A DNA stretch of 64,000 nt from a candidate division KSB1 bacterium (GTDB lineage Bacteria; Zhuqueibacterota; Zhuqueibacteria; Residuimicrobiales; Krinioviventaceae). Below the pieces are notes generated by a model, which saw nothing but the letters and a program-made list of their open reading frames with translations, had not been told where the DNA came from and made no database searches. Within the stretch, counting starts at the first letter, position 1. Every line of letters starts with the position of its first letter. Below are positions 480 to 8,257 of this stretch, one piece after another. The position numbers and the translations under genes are program-made. The stretch is taken from positions 2,170,001 to 2,234,000 of the forward strand of contig JAXHMJ010000005.1 of NCBI GenBank assembly GCA_034521575.1. The letters run 5' to 3'.

Positions 480-1220
480 CTATTTATTTTTCTGTCGATA
501 AGATGGTCCTTCCATCAGTATAATCTCCGAGTTTTAACGAGCCGGTCTGCGATGGCTTGAGCGATTACAGCACTTTGAAAGATCTCTCCCCAGCGGCCAA
601 AGGGCAGATTGGTGGTCACGATTGTACTCGACACGTTCATGCCTGGCACTGAGCACCTGGAAAAAAAGATTTGATGACTGTTCGTCAAGCGAAAGAAAAC
701 CCAACTCGTCACAAACAAGCAGACTTGGAGTTTGATAAAATTTTAGTTTTTTTAACAACGACTGATCAGCTTGAGCGGCAATGAGGTGATTAATCATATC
801 AATAGCTGTTGTGAAGAGTACACGTTCATTTTTCAAACAGGCTTGATAAGCTATGGTTTTTGCTAATCGGGTTTTTCCGGTTCCGGGGGCGCCAATAAAG
901 ATCACGTCTTGTTTTTTATGAATAAAATCACATTCGGACAAACGCAAAACAAGGGATCGGTTCTGTTGTCGGGAGACATGGAATTTAAAATCAAAGTCAC
1001 TTGGCAAGCATTTATCAATCAAATGCGACGCTTTGATTCTGTTTTCAACAGAGCGTTTCCAGCGTGATTCGTTTTCCAGGTCAAGCAAATAATCGAGCAG
1101 CCACAGAAAGCCGTTGTTCTGCTCTTTTTCTTTTTCAAAGGCATCTTCGAGATATTCGGCCATGGTATTGAGTCGCAACTGCTGCAATTTGTGGATTGTA
1201 TTTTCAATTTTTGTCATCAT
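480..1220 (-). pseudogene. istB: IstB-like ATP-binding transposition protein, frameshifted
   Basis: IstB is the AAA+ helper ATPase that works with the IstA transposase in target capture and strand transfer. The reading frame from 1220 shows the Walker A region FIGAPGTGKTRLAKT and Walker B VCDELGFLSL. After QVLSARHER the frame breaks near 634. The expected continuation STIVTTNLPFGRWGEIF is found in the neighbouring frame, as if one base were lost. A second one-base loss near 536 in a run of A moves the reading to SEIILMEGPSYRQKNK, which ends at 480 and matches the usual IstB tail. istA overlaps the start by 17 bp. Function would be restored if both indels are sequencing errors. Confidence 0.85.
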
Positions 1221-2695
1221 TGTTCCTGCTTTTTTTCAAAGTAATGGCATCATAGATTAACAGATCGGGTTCCTGTAATTGTAACTGATTGAGCGTTTCA
1301 TCTTTGAGGGTAACTTTGGGGTAATATGTTTTAATATGCATTTTTTGATGCAGGATATTCTCAACATAATCGACGCCATAGGCTTTGTATTTGAGGGTTA
1401 TTTCAACGGCCTCCACAACTGCTTTGGCTCCATATTGTTCTCTTAATTCCAGGAGATGACTGGATGCCCGGGAAAGGCTTTTCCCGGCCTTGGCCAAATT
1501 TTCGATGAATAGTTTGATGGGTTCACCCATTGAAAACAAGAGTTGTTCTTGTCTGGTTAACCTTGCCTTTTTACGTGTTTTCAAAAGTTCTGAAATATGG
1601 TTCGGATTTTCAATAACAGCCCGGCGTTTCCAGCTTCGCGTGTGTACAGCAACAATTTTGTTTTTATGGCCTGCCCAAATTGTATGGTTATCCGCTTTGA
1701 CACTGACTGTTTTACCGGCCATCCACCAAGGCGCTGAATAATAATTTGCATCAAATTTAAACCGGCAATCGGAATGGACTTTAGCTTCTGAATGATCTCT
1801 GGTATCCGGCAATACATCCGGCAATGGACGCAGGGCTTTCGGCTGAAAACGTTCAACCGGTTTTTCATTCGTTGTTGCGTGAATACGTGTATTTGCAATG
1901 TGATCGCGCCATTTGCAGGCTTGCACATTTACATCATCCAGATCGGCAAAGGTGCGGCACGGCCAAAAGTTATAGCGAACGTAATGAACACCGCCTTTTT
2001 CTATCTTGCCTTTTGCGGATGCGTCCCTTATGCCGCACGCGTAAGGTCTGATATGAAAAGGGCGCAAGAAATGCAAATAATCTTCGTTGAACCGGATAAT
2101 ATCGCCGATTCGTTCAATGACCGCTGTTTTCAAATTATCGTGCACCAGTTCTTTGGGAGCGCCACCAAAGAATAAAAAGAATTCAACAGGGTGCGCATCA
2201 CAGCTTCTTTGTTTTGACTATGTGTGAACTCGATGTAGAGCATTCTGGAATGGCATTCTATCACCGTCATGCAGTACAGTTTTCTGGAGGTGTTGCCATA
2301 AATGAGACTGCCGAAATGCCCCAATCAAACTGACATTGTTCACCAGGGCTGCTTTCAAACCGAATGTAGGCTTTGGATCGTTTCTTACCTCCTCGTTTAG
2401 CAAGGAGGTAATCGCGCAAAATCGTAATCCCTCCGGTATAGCCTTTTTCGTCGATACGTTGTTTAATAACAACAGCGCTGGCGTTCGGCCAACCTTCCAG
2501 CAGTTCATCAATATAATTATAGAACGGTTCCAATTTACCTGGCTTTGGACGTCTGGGAGGTGTGGCAATATCCGGGGAGTTGAGATATTTTTGCACAGTT
2601 GGTCTTGAAATACATAACTTTCTGGCAATTTGGCGTTGTTTCATGCCCATATCAGCCAATTTGTGAATTTCAAAGATGATTCGTTTATTCATCAT
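1204..2695 (-). pseudogene. istA: IstA-like DDE transposase, two frameshifts
   Basis: This is the DDE transposase of the IS21 family. The N-terminus (MMNKRIIFEIHKLADMGMKQ) carries a helix-turn-helix (QRQIARKLCISRPTVQKYL). The catalytic core begins at QCQFDWG, the first Asp motif. There the frame breaks near 2305, where one base is missing, and continues in another frame as HFGSLIYGNTSRKLYCMTV. A second single-base loss near 2165 moves the reading to APKELVHDNLKTAV, the second Asp motif, and on to the C-terminus at 1204. All expected segments are present in order, so two point deletions explain everything. The chosen start overlaps the end of the preceding HTH gene by about 11 bp, suggesting coupled translation. 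Confidence 0.85.
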
Positions 2696-3116
2696 GACTT
2701 TTGGCCCTTTCAAGAGATTCAGTTACAAGTTTACGGATCGTCATGGGGTCCCAGTTTTCAAAATCGGAGCGGGTAGTCAAGGGTTTTGAAGGCAGTGCAA
2801 CCGGCTTTTTCGGCAAAGAAAGCACCTGAAACATAAACCCGTCAAAGGCAATCAGGGATTTTTTGATCAAAGCGTTTCTGGCAGTGATAAAATCATCAAG
2901 ACTTATCCTCAGCATCGTGCAGAGCCGGTCCTGACTGTAATAAGACAGCCCGTGCCGATCTCCGACAAGCACGAGCAAAAAGTAAATCAAAAGCTCGTGT
3001 TGATTCAAACTGGTAAAAAAATGGTCTGTGATAAACCGGTGTGGAATAAAACTAAATCCCCCATCAATGTTACGCACCCGGTCGGGAATAAGGGGTTTTT
3101 TGGTGATTTTCATCAT
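2685..3116 (-). CDS. helix-turn-helix passenger protein of the IS21 element
   Basis: This 143-residue protein begins at a double ATG (3116/3113) behind a GGGAGGC ribosome site. It has a winged-helix-like pattern: FTSLNQHELLIYFLLVLV, then LSYYSQDRLCTMLRISLDDF, resembling DNA-binding domains of replication or plasmid-control proteins. Similar proteins precede istA in IS21 elements of Deltaproteobacteria and related groups (established by recall, not by search). It lies inside the element ends, so it travels with the transposon. It overlaps istA and may control its expression or the end complex; that role is inference. Confidence 0.6.
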   Translation of the reverse strand: MMKITKKPLIPDRVRNIDGGFSFIPHRFITDHFFTSLNQHELLIYFLLVLVGDRHGLSYYSQDRLCTMLRISLDDFITARNALIKKSLIAFDGFMFQVLSLPKKPVALPSKPLTTRSDFENWDPMTIRKLVTESLERAKSHDE

Positions 3117-3187
3117 TCTGCCTCCCGAATAATAGATCACGTACAAATTCAACTGAAATCTACTATACCACAAGGCAAATAGCAATA

Positions 3188-3686: not shown

Positions 3687-3981
3687 CACAGACACTCGTA
3701 TTGGTGGAAGGATAGTTAGGGCTGAGAACCAACATACAGCCAAAAACAAGCCCAATAATCTAAAGTGCCATAAAAATTAATTTGTGAAAAGGGGGAAAAA
3801 GAGAATAAAACGAATGATATGAAAATAAGAGAAAATTAGATGGAATTTTTATGAATATTTATGAAAATGAATTAAATGAAAGAAAATGTATGGTAAAGTT
3901 TTAGACCGGTGAAAATGGTAAAGAATTAAAGTGGTGGTAATATAGGAGAGCAGTGTTTTAGCATATATCAGTGTGGAGACC

Positions 3982-4737
3982 ATGAAAACAAAGCATACAG
4001 CCTGGTTTCGGTTTTATGAGGAATTGAATGATTTTCTGCCGAGGGATAAGAAAAAACGGGATATCCTTTACGAGTTTTCAGGTCATCCGGGTGTCAAGGA
4101 TGCGATAGAGGCGCTTGGGGTACCGCATCCGGAAGTGGAGCTGATTCTGGTCAATGGCAAATCTGTGGGGTTTGATTATCATCTGCAGCATGGCGACCGG
4201 GTGTCTGTTTATCCCATGTTCGAAAGTTTGGATGTTCGATCGTTGATCCGTCTCCGGCCGCAGCCGCTGCGGATTCCGCGTTTTGTCCTGGATGTGCATT
4301 TGGGAAAATTGGCTGCCAACTTGCGGCTTTTGGGATTTGATGCGCTGTATCGCAATGATTATTCCGATCCGCAGATTATTGATATTTCCGTGAATGAACG
4401 CCGCATTATTCTGACCCGGGACCGCGGGATTTTAAAGACCGGCGCCGTGACGCACGGGTACTGTTTGCGCTCTGACGATCCGGAGCAACAGACCCGGGAA
4501 GTACTGAGCCGTTTTGATCTTTACAACAGCGTCAGTTTGTTTACCCGCTGTGTCAAATGCAACGGAAAAATTGTGCAGGTCGAAAAGCATGCGATCCAGG
4601 ATCAAATACCGGAAAAAGCCGCAAAATACTATGATGATTTTCATCAATGTCAATCATGCGGGCAGATTTACTGGAAGGGGTCGCATTTTTCAAAAATGCA
4701 AAAGAAAATCAAGAAATTGTTGAAACGGGAAAACTAA
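3982..4737 (+). CDS. Mut7-C RNase domain protein with N-terminal ubiquitin-like domain
   Basis: The protein has about 251 residues from the ATG at 3982; a GTG at 3973 in the same frame is possible, but GGAG at 3975-3978 serves the ATG. Residues 1-80 form the ubiquitin-like fold often fused to Mut7-C (VKDAIEALGVPHPEVELILV). Residues 95-160 carry the PIN-like Mut7-C core (FVLDVHLGKLAANLRLLGFD, then IDISVNERRIILTRDRGIL) with its acidic residues. The C-terminus has a four-cysteine zinc ribbon (CVKC, CQSC). The family is related to the nuclease domain of eukaryotic Mut-7 and is predicted to cut RNA. The IS element sits directly upstream and may have removed the native promoter. Confidence 0.85.
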   Translation: MKTKHTAWFRFYEELNDFLPRDKKKRDILYEFSGHPGVKDAIEALGVPHPEVELILVNGKSVGFDYHLQHGDRVSVYPMFESLDVRSLIRLRPQPLRIPRFVLDVHLGKLAANLRLLGFDALYRNDYSDPQIIDISVNERRIILTRDRGILKTGAVTHGYCLRSDDPEQQTREVLSRFDLYNSVSLFTRCVKCNGKIVQVEKHAIQDQIPEKAAKYYDDFHQCQSCGQIYWKGSHFSKMQKKIKKLLKREN

Positions 4738-4750
4738 CAGGTAAAAAAAA

Positions 4751-4934
4751 GGCACCGGGTGTCGCATCGCCTAGGGGGGGTCAGCGAACGACGGGGGAAA
4801 CCGGTGCCATATCATATAAAATTCAGAACATAATATACTGTAAAAATATTTAAAATGCAAGAAAAAAATGATGACGCCGGGTGCCAATTAGCCTAGGGGG
4901 GGTCAGCCATTGGCGAGGGGAACCAGCGCCATCA
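4751..4934. repeat. two copies of a conserved folded sequence in a convergent intergenic gap
   Basis: Copy 1 is 4751-4808 and copy 2 is 4869-4934. Both share GCCTAGGGGGGGTCAGC in the centre and a GGGGAAACC-like segment near the end. In copy 1, GGCACCGG (4751-4758) pairs with CCGGTGCC (4801-4808), GTCG (4761-4764) with CGAC (4789-4792), and TCGC (4767-4770) with GCGA (4784-4787). In copy 2 the outer stem 4869-4880/4923-4934 has 10 of 12 pairs and the second stem is GCCAAT (4883-4888) with ATTGGC (4909-4914). The stems differ in sequence but keep pairing, while the loops are conserved. On the minus strand each copy is followed by a run of 7-8 T, so both could end transcription from the TonB receptor gene. 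The rest of the gap (4935-5119) shows nothing recognisable. Confidence 0.7.
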
Positions 4935-5119
4935 TGTTTTGCTCGCAATATTTTTATCCGGGATTTCATATTTATACTCCCCTGTATCATGTATCGCATT
5001 TATAATTGCTCTATCTTAGACAAATTCTATTCAAGTTTTATTCCATATTTTTAAGCCAATGCATCGTTTTTTTTTGATCAGGTAAATGTTATCGGCATTT
5101 TATTCCACTTTTTATTCCA

Positions 5120-7281
5120 CTATAGTGTGCCCTTGAGTCCTGCGGTAAACGTGCGCATGGGTTCCATGCTGCTTTCCCGTGATGCATAATTATAGTTGAA
5201 CACATTGTTTACGCCCAACTGCAGTGTGATCGATCCGAAATCGTAGGACACCTGCAGGTCCACAAATTTCATAGGCACCCGCTCGTTGATGGGATAAATT
5301 TTCACCTCTTTAATTTTACTGGCATAGCGGTATAAAAGTTCCGTATACACCTTGCCCACATGCAGATTAGCCTTGGCGGTAAACAACTGATTGGGACGAT
5401 AAGTGAGCGGTTCATTCCATTGCAAATTTTCGTGGTCCATGAGCGTTGTCGTCAAAACCAGTCCGGGCGCTATGCGTGTATTGTTCCAGTGAAACGGGTT
5501 ACTCCAGTTCATGGTGGCTTCAATGCCCTGAATGCGCGCCTGTTCCACATTGCGGAACTGGACATCTGTCCACGAATCAGATCAAGGTGTGCCTCGATCA
5601 GATTCCAGTAATCATTGCGGAATAGCGAGATATCCACATTCCAGTGATCGTTGATATAGTGCCGCACGCCCACATCATAAGCCCAGGCGTGTTCAGGCTC
5701 CAGATCCGGATTGGCTTTGATCTTGAAATTCATGATGGTCAATTCCAGGAATCGCTCGACGATCGTCGCGGCGCGAAAGCCGCTGCCGACCGAGGCGCGG
5801 AAATGTGTGGTGACCCAGGGCTGCCAGTTCAGTCCGAAGCGCGGACTCCACAGGTCTTCGCCTTTGCCGCCCTGCAGCTGATATCGATCGTAGCGCAACC
5901 CCGTGGTCATGCGCAGATTTTCGCGCAGTTTCCACTCATTTTGCACATACGGGCCAAACGAGTAGCCGGTGTGCGATCCGAAAAATTTGGTGCTACCCGC
6001 ATCCTGCTGAAACTGGATACCGCCGGTCAGAGTGTGGGCGGCATGCGGAATCCAGGTACCCTGGGCTTCGAATCCCTGTCCCAGCGCCGGATTGAAATTG
6101 GCGTCATCACCGAACTGATTGCCCATCAGAGTGCGCACAAATGACCCGCGCACATTGATCGCCAGCTTGGAGGACACCGGAATGCCCACTTTGACATAGG
6201 CGTTCAGCTGATTGGTGGCTGCATAATTATCCAGATTCGATTCGTCCACTTCATAGGGATGGTTGGGACCCTTCCATTGCAGAAAAAAGCCGCGGTCGAT
6301 GTAACTGTATGCCGCGTATGCGGTGACATTGGTGCCATGGGCAAACTGGTAATCAAATTTTCCGGTCAGGTTGACCTTGCTGGCATCTCCCAGCTGCCGG
6401 TATCCGGTGGATGAGTAATGACCGGCGGAAATGCGCATGCCCATTGAACCGATTTGCCGGCTGTAACTGGCATCTTCGCGGTGATACCATTGCATCTTGT
6501 TCGTATAATCCCAGGTCTCATAGGCCGGCTCTCCGTACAAACCCGAAGAAACCGATACCATCATCCGCCCCTCTTCGGACGGATCTTTGGTCTGGATATT
6601 AACCACCCCCCCGAGCGCCGAAGCGCCCCATAATGTGGATCCTGCGCCCTTGAGCACTTCAATCTGTTCAATGTCCATGGGCGGCAGCATGTCCCAGTTG
6701 AACTCGCCGGTGTCGCTGGCATATACCGGCACACCATCCAGCAGCAGCAGCACTTTGTTACCGGCGCCAAATGTATAGCCGGTCGAGCCGCGGATGTTGA
6801 TCTGATCGCCGATAAAATTGATGCCCGGCGCAGTTTCCAGTACCTCGACGATATTGGTGGCGTTTCGCTGTTCGATCTGGCGTGCGGTGACGACGGAAAT
6901 GGAAACCGGCGCACGGTCCAGGCGCTGTTCTGTTTTGCCGGCCAGCACCACTACCGGATCGAATTCAATGGATGTGGGTTCCAGGGAAAAGTTGACGCTG
7001 GTCGCGCTGTTGACCCGCACGCGCACCCCTGGTTCTTCAATATTGCGGTAGCCGATCATCGAGGCGCGCAGTGTGTATACATCCGGTGGTACAGACGAAA
7101 TTGTAAAATTTCCATCTCTGTCTGTACTGGCGCCCAGCATGGTGCCCTCAACGGTGATGTTCACTCCCGGCAGCGGCGTCTCGGTCTCGCTATCCACCAC
7201 CCGGCCTTTAATTTGACCTGTCGGCGCTGCCCAGACGGCGCTGTTGAGAAATAAAAGGAATAAAATAATCGTTTTTTTCAT
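5120..7281 (-). CDS. TonB-dependent outer-membrane receptor, one frameshift
   Basis: The product of about 720 residues forms a 22-strand outer-membrane barrel that imports a ligand using TonB energy. The start at 7281 follows GGGAGAA and gives a clean signal peptide (MKKTIILFLLFLNSAVWA). A carboxypeptidase-regulatory-like beta-sandwich follows (GQIKGRVVDSETETPLPGVN), then the plug (INIRGSTGYTFGAGNKVLLLL, GAGSTLWGASALGGVVNIQT) and the barrel. The frame breaks near 5575, where one base seems missing. The continuation WTDVQFRNVEQARIQG through the C-terminal strand ending FTAGLKGTL is found in the neighbouring frame and stops at 5120. The substrate is unknown; BtuB/CirA-like receptors have similar plugs. 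A DUF523/DUF1722 gene ends 22 bp upstream in the same direction, so co-transcription is likely. Confidence 0.88.
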
Positions 7282-7303
7282 CCTGTTCTCCCTGTTAACC
7301 GCC

Positions 7304-8257
7304 TTAGACATGATTGCGCAACGCCAGTTCCGCTGGATGCGGGGTCAGGTAAACCTGATCCAGCAGATAGGGTTGTTCATATTTGCGGATATAGTGCTTG
7401 AGCAGCGTCACCGGTACAATCAACGGCACCAGGTTGTTGTGATATTGACTGATAATATCCCGCATTTCCAGCTTTTCATCTGCGGTCAGTTGCTTTTTAA
7501 AGTACCCGAGTATGTGATCCAGTACATTGACGTTCTTTTTAACCGTGGCTTTGACCTTTAATCCCTGCATCAGCGTTCTGAAATATTGGTCCAGCAGTTC
7601 TTCAAAATTAAAATGTTTAATATCCGCGACCCGTTTCCCGAGCTTGCGCATATGCGTTTCGCTGTGCGCCATAAGCATCAGCTTGTGGCGGGTGTGAAAA
7701 TCAACCAGACCCTTGGCCGAGCGGTCCTGTTTCAAATACTCCTTCCAGCGGTGAAACACAAACACGCGTTCGATAAAGTTTTCCCGCAATCCGGCATCGT
7801 TGAGACGGCCTTCATCTTCAACCGGGATCAGCGGAAACCGGTCCATAAACGCTTTGGCAAACAATCCGGCTGTCTTGTTGGAGGTCGGATTGCCATCCTC
7901 TTTATAAATTTTGATATCGCGCATACCGGAGCTGGGGGATCTGGTTTTGAAAATGAATCCGCATAGATCTTGTGTTTCCAGATCAACGAGGCGTTTTTTG
8001 CTCCACTCGTGCATGCGTTCGGTGTGATCCATATTGCTACGGAGGGTGACCAGGCGCGGCGATTCCGGATCACCGGCCAGGTGCATGGCTTCGCGCGGTG
8101 TCGGCAGCCCGCACTCTACTTCCGGACAGACCGGAACCCATTCAACAAACGGTCCGACAATATTGGTCAGATATCGGTCCCATTTGTGTCCGCCGTCGTA
8201 ACGGACTTTTTCGCCGAGCAGACAAGTACTGATTCCAAGTTTGATTTTTTCACTCAT
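7304..8257 (-). CDS. DUF523 and DUF1722 domain protein (YbgA-type)
   Basis: This 317-residue cytosolic protein joins two conserved domains. Residues 5-150 are DUF523 (GISTCLLGEKVRYDGGHK, VPVCPEVECGLPTPREAMHL), and the second half is DUF1722 (VDFHTRHKLMLMAHSETHMR, VLDHILGYFKKQLTADEK). The Cys residues in CLLGE and CPEVECG are conserved in the first domain. The fused form is widespread in bacteria. DUF1722 proteins are found near DNA photolyase genes in some genomes, but no photolyase is present here and no biochemical role is claimed. The gene starts at 8257 and faces the divergent LEA lipoprotein gene across 82 bp. Confidence 0.85.
   Translation of the reverse strand: MSEKIKLGISTCLLGEKVRYDGGHKWDRYLTNIVGPFVEWVPVCPEVECGLPTPREAMHLAGDPESPRLVTLRSNMDHTERMHEWSKKRLVDLETQDLCGFIFKTRSPSSGMRDIKIYKEDGNPTSNKTAGLFAKAFMDRFPLIPVEDEGRLNDAGLRENFIERVFVFHRWKEYLKQDRSAKGLVDFHTRHKLMLMAHSETHMRKLGKRVADIKHFNFEELLDQYFRTLMQGLKVKATVKKNVNVLDHILGYFKKQLTADEKLEMRDIISQYHNNLVPLIVPVTLLKHYIRKYEQPYLLDQVYLTPHPAELALRNHV

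Follow-up and report, generated by a model that had tools for sequence, protein, structure and literature searches.

Location and architecture of the element

The window, meaning the whole 64,000-nt stretch of DNA that was analysed, contains at positions 4751-4934 two tandem copies of a folded element. They are located between two convergent genes, a Mut7-C family gene (3973-4737, plus strand) and a TonB-dependent receptor gene (7311-5120, minus strand), and both the tandem arrangement and the convergent surroundings were confirmed as described in the initial annotation. Two overlapping ORFs (5509-7311 and 5120-5548) make up the receptor gene, a split that points to a frameshift or a sequencing error near 5509-5548. 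Elsewhere in the window, an IS21-like element (534-3185, minus strand) comprises, in broken frames, an IstB ATPase, pieces of a Mu-type transposase and an HTH protein; its accessory ORF (2685-3185) has a second copy elsewhere on contig C5.

Read on the minus strand, each copy is composed of the stem strand P1, a 5′ internal loop, P2, the terminal loop, P2′, two unpaired bases, P1′ and a U-run. In the window copies, P1 has 8-13 bp and P2 has 10 bp with a single bulged base on its 3′ side, and a U-G pair closes the terminal loop GACCCCCCCUA. The following features were assigned:

4808-4751, minus strand: hairpin of copy 1 (fold and covariance-model match, 6.4e-16)
4808-4801/4758-4751, minus strand: P1 of copy 1
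4800-4793, minus strand: internal loop UUUCCCCC of copy 1
4792-4783/4771-4761, minus strand: P2 of copy 1
4782-4772, minus strand: terminal loop GACCCCCCCUA of copy 1
4750-4743, minus strand: U-run (T8) of copy 1, intrinsic-terminator tail directly 3′ of the hairpin
4935-4868, minus strand: hairpin of copy 2 with a longer P1; model core 4930-4873 (model match, 1.7e-14)
within copy 2, minus strand: internal loop UUCCCCUC and terminal loop GACCCCCCCUA
about 4868-4862, minus strand: U-run of copy 2
4967-4936, minus strand: stretch upstream of copy 2 with GAAATCCCGG, tentatively a possible promoter

Both loops had been reported as kept between the copies. This is exact for GCCTAGGGGGGGTCAGC, whereas the second motif is near-identical only: copy 1 reads GGGGGAAACC where copy 2 reads GGGGAACC. 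The reported changes on both strands of the stems (GTCG/CGAC versus GCCAAT/ATTGGC) and the T-run 3′ of each copy on the minus strand were found as described.

Copies and taxonomic range of the family

A search of the 5.26 Mb assembly for the loop revealed four copies genome-wide, namely the window pair, C5:429885-429942 and C2:861627-861690, all of which share one fold (z-scores of -2.6 to -5.4). A covariance model (R1) built from copies 1-3 recovered the fourth copy and detected copies in 14 of 60 genomes, one of which (G030) lies outside the order and gave a weak match that was unconfirmed by the later models. With a second model (R2), built from 32 matches and applied with a cut-off of E <= 0.01, copies were found in 21 of the 22 genomes of the order and none in the other 60 genomes of the phylum. 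A third model (R3), built from 44 matches, resulted in 52 matches in those same 21 genomes and none in 59 genomes elsewhere in the phylum. The initial annotation had named missing homologues or broken pairing in related genomes as evidence against the element; homologues are present in 21 of 22 genomes and their pairing is intact. A single genome of the order (G015) gave no match, and such absences are uncertain given incomplete assemblies and filtered searches.

Between one and seven copies are present per genome, and tandem pairs resembling the window pair were detected at G004:C2, G007:C76, G009:C514, G002:C26 and G017:C45. GenBank records carrying the exact loop bear the label candidate division KSB1 or just bacterium. 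An exact 17-mer scan of 84,980 genomes returned KSB1 records and one Myxococcales locus (24.1 bits), which has several stem mismatches and is probably a chance match. In viral contigs the loop with seven Cs was absent, and three loops with six Cs lacked the full structure. Plain DNA similarity searches of 40 relatives gave short spurious matches only (L009 and L011 were inspected). Within the genome itself, a 35-nt partial match (L003) was rejected, as the full element is absent there and the models missed it.

No Rfam 15 match was found in the window at the gathering threshold, all matches up to E = 10 in the region 4600-5100 lie outside the element, and only tRNAs were detected at the other loci of the family. 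In the initial annotation, the element had been matched to no riboswitch class. The element represents a new, previously undescribed RNA family of candidate division KSB1 that is order-specific.

Conservation of the structure

Compared with dinucleotide shuffles, folding of the minus strand gave z-scores of -4.1 (copy 1) and -3.7 (copy 2), and folding of the plus strand -2.0 and -1.0, respectively. In a gap-free alignment of copies 1-3 from the same genome, canonical pairing holds in every one of the 54 pair cells and both sides are changed in 6 of 18 pairs, whereas at most 46% of the cells pair when the partner strand is slid. For 44 aligned copies (42 distinct sequences), 96.4% of the pair cells are canonical compared with at most 40% for slid pairings; 17 of 18 pairs are double-changed, amounting to 275 double-changed cells, and the covariation score is 0.962 versus 0.270 (sd 0.018) after shuffling. 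This alignment had been fitted to the structure. RNAalifold nevertheless predicted an identical fold when given it. When 15 conserved-type copies were aligned by MAFFT, which is blind to structure, both stems were recovered and 10 of 14 pairs were double-changed.

Among the 42 distinct sequences there are 94 GU cells versus 9 AC cells, and from this excess the C-rich (minus) strand is concluded to be the RNA; the initial annotation had named no functional strand. These sequences show no variation at G40, A41, C44 and A50 of the terminal loop or at C25 and C28 of the internal loop, and the terminal loop contains either six or seven Cs. The unpaired C-rich segments correspond to columns 24-28 and 40-50 of alignment A6 and are unpaired in the RNAalifold fold, too. 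The initial annotation had proposed a selected structure and possibly a new motif, and this proposal is supported: pairing is kept in the homologues from 21 of the order's 22 genomes, and Rfam has no counterpart. The element is almost certainly a selected RNA structure.

Genomic neighbourhoods, predicted promoters and terminators

In total, 14 copies share one neighbourhood, which consists of the glutamyl/glutaminyl-tRNA synthetase gene (gltX), often a variable gene, the RNA, and, convergent to it, the genes of an AAA_25-like ATPase (236 aa) and of an EF-G-like protein. The copy at L070 was counted here by the neighbours it shares with L064. A second recurrent neighbourhood (L082, L087 and L093) has on one strand genes for a large protein and a LuxR-type response regulator, one or two copies of the RNA, and a gene for a TPR protein.

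Two further observations concern individual loci. In genome G009, a weak and partly degenerate match (L168:2514-2451, minus strand, 15.2 bits) adjoins the AAA_25 gene at the site where other genomes keep an intact RNA, and is possibly a decaying ancestral copy. Upstream of the third genomic copy (L056, ~5750-5885), a long, somewhat attC-like inverted repeat (GCAATATACGTAAGCCGCGGGATT ... AATCCCGGCCTACGCATATTG) adjoins a ParE/RelE-like toxin-antitoxin pair and could represent a cassette end beside the RNA copy.

The initial annotation had offered an elaborate terminator, a small RNA and a short mobile repeat as readings of the element. A small REP- or MITE-like mobile or repeat element would account for several diverged and partly tandem intergenic copies, but copy numbers stay at one to seven per genome, the position is conserved in 14 genomes, the sequence beyond the hairpin is unrelated between loci, and the GU bias indicates selection on a single RNA strand. 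This reading is disfavoured and regarded as extremely improbable.

A GGAAC box is located 31-48 nt upstream of the hairpin in all 14 syntenic copies, at a background of ~0.015 per 16 positions. In 13 of them a CGTTT-like -10 box (GTT/GTA) is found at a fixed spacing from it, the spacers themselves being unrelated. AAC at -35 and CGT at -10 are the general signature of promoters recognised by ECF sigma factors (PMC4153023). This signature (AAC and CGT, spacing ~16) was found in 13 of the 14 syntenic copies only, with a -10 box that often lacks the C. It is well supported that the syntenic ancestral locus has its own predicted ECF-sigma-type promoter with a transcript reaching from the hairpin base to the U-tail; as the predicted start lies approximately at the hairpin base, hairpin and U-tail would make up the whole transcript.

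The GGAAC box is absent from the expected place in the four copies of this genome, including the window pair, and in the other paralogues outside the syntenic group. A stretch GAAATCCCGG ~32 nt before the hairpin is common to copies 2 and 3 and may, tentatively and judged by its sequence, be a related promoter. Searching for the strict GGAAC-CGTTTA pattern revealed no genome-wide enrichment and no regulon. A recurring subset of these strict-pattern sites (GGAACAAAATTATCCCAATCCGTTTA type) was rejected as promoters and is probably coding, because one frame, read by eye, gives QNYPNPF, a motif of secretion-tail proteins.

A U-run is present in nearly all copies. The gene upstream is on the same strand in 30 of 44 copies, some of which may thus be released from 3′ UTRs, and it is divergent in 13. 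An elaborate intrinsic terminator or a 3′-UTR stabiliser of the upstream gene, without a function in trans, fits the GC-rich hairpin ending in a U-run and the many copies behind same-strand genes, among them the window pair downstream of the TonB receptor gene. It leaves unexplained the 13 copies behind divergent genes, the near-invariant loop, which terminators do not need, and the promoter-like box between upstream gene and hairpin in all 14 syntenic copies; furthermore, two consecutive terminators would be redundant. That part of the initial proposal which concerns the hairpin and its U-run stands, but a terminator as the sole role is improbable.

Some copies precede a same-strand gene by ~60-190 nt, for example a membrane pyrophosphatase gene (L004) or the TPR gene behind the response regulator, as would be expected for a cis-regulatory leader such as a riboswitch or attenuator. 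For the convergent copies this is refuted; a convergent downstream gene is found for the window pair and for most syntenic copies. With no common function among the downstream genes and no alternative anti-terminator pairing seen, a leader is very improbable also for the family. The promoter boxes and the copies behind divergent genes suggest that the element is probably a free-standing small RNA gene with its own terminator, the small RNA being the best supported of the three initial options.

Proposed function

In the mechanism that we favour, each copy would form the main part of a minus-strand gene of ~70-80 nt for a small non-coding RNA, and this RNA would act in trans without Hfq. Its two exposed C-rich segments would serve as seeds that pair with G-rich mRNA sites, above all Shine-Dalgarno (SD) regions, and the pairing would block translation during a stress to which an ECF sigma factor responds. 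The paralogues, often in tandem, would vary in stems, seed flanks and promoter, and the window pair would represent two of them. For this mechanism as a whole, which we infer from the features described above, we see an equal chance of its being right or wrong.

Hfq is absent from all 22 genomes of the order, whereas control genomes were positive. The SD sites of the genome read GGAGG, and the internal loops contain CCCCUC or CCUCCCCUCC, which can pair with them. Complementary 6-mers were counted for 672 genes (0.86 Mb) at positions -25 to 0 versus -75 to -50, using a choice of start codons that favoured SD sites. The complements of the internal loop of copy 4 were found in 36 versus 6 genes and those of copies 2 and 3 in 10 versus 5, whereas copy 1 showed no enrichment (6 versus 9). 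Where SD sites read GGAGG, any segment containing CCUC would give such a signal. Complements of the terminal loop near start codons were not enriched (2 of the 672 genes at k = 6, 0.86 Mb), which leaves the internal loop as the most that the anti-SD model may account for.

The terminal loop, GACCCCCC(C)UA, is the most conserved part of the element. Its near-invariance and the lack of enriched complements at ribosome-binding sites would be explained if the small RNA stood alone and its conserved C-rich loops served not to pair with mRNA but to bind a protein, so as to titrate or regulate it. The flanking G, A and UA show the same strict conservation as the Cs, which would be expected for a protein site. 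However, no candidate protein is linked to the element, the neighbours differ by locus without a recurring RNA-binding protein, and similar C-rich loops elsewhere in bacteria are pairing seeds. Protein binding is the main rival to pairing for the terminal loop, though unlikely as an account of the RNA. We likewise hold it doubtful that the element is a new class of order-wide regulatory RNA in this Hfq-less lineage, a core ECF stress-response RNA spread by duplication, whose invariant GACCCCCCUA loop works in a mode not seen before, for example with a dedicated poly-C-loop protein or with G-run targets other than SD sites.

Comparison with known systems

The sigma-E-dependent sRNAs MicA, RybB and MicL of enterobacteria are short RNAs with an ECF promoter of the GGAAC -35 type and a terminator hairpin; they rely on Hfq and pair mostly through their 5′ end. 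The KSB1 element resembles them in the predicted ECF promoter of its syntenic copies and in its terminator hairpin and differs in the absence of Hfq and in its candidate seeds, which are loops.

The Rhodobacter RNAs CcsR1-4 carry the loop motif CCUCCUCCC. They are repeated hairpins transcribed under alternative stress sigma factors (PMC8307010), and the alphaproteobacterial SmelA075 and SmelA099 present CCUCCUCCC anti-SD loops on variable stems (PMC3927594). The KSB1 element shares with these sRNAs invariant C-rich loops, variable stems and repeated hairpins, and with CcsR it would also have in common an alternative stress sigma factor for its transcription. It is distinguished by the loop GACCCCCC(C)UA, an additional 5′ C-rich internal loop, a U-run for each copy, its different phylum and the lack of an Rfam match.

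The five homologous sRNAs LhrC1-5 of Listeria are likewise multicopy and have redundant C/U-rich motifs in their loops (PMC4132741). Their UCCC motifs, one of them in the terminator hairpin, bind targets without need of Hfq, and they are under envelope-stress control (PMC4132741). LhrC RNAs have 111-114 nt, two stem-loops and near-identical copies, whereas here the two C-rich segments sit in one hairpin and stem sequences differ strongly between copies; no homology between LhrC and the KSB1 element was seen.

No structured regulatory RNA of candidate division KSB1 was found in Rfam or in the searched literature. The strong covariation, the order-wide range, the syntenic ancestral locus and the predicted promoter make the element fit for deposition as an RNA family, which could be looked for in existing metatranscriptomes. 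In known RNAs, fixed C-rich loops on drifting stems bind ribosome-binding sites (PMC3927594; PMC4132741), and by analogy the KSB1 RNA may work like the C-rich-loop sRNAs of other phyla, to which no homology was found. It would then add an independent case, from a lineage without Hfq, of multicopy sRNAs that keep their C-rich loops and freely rewrite their stems.
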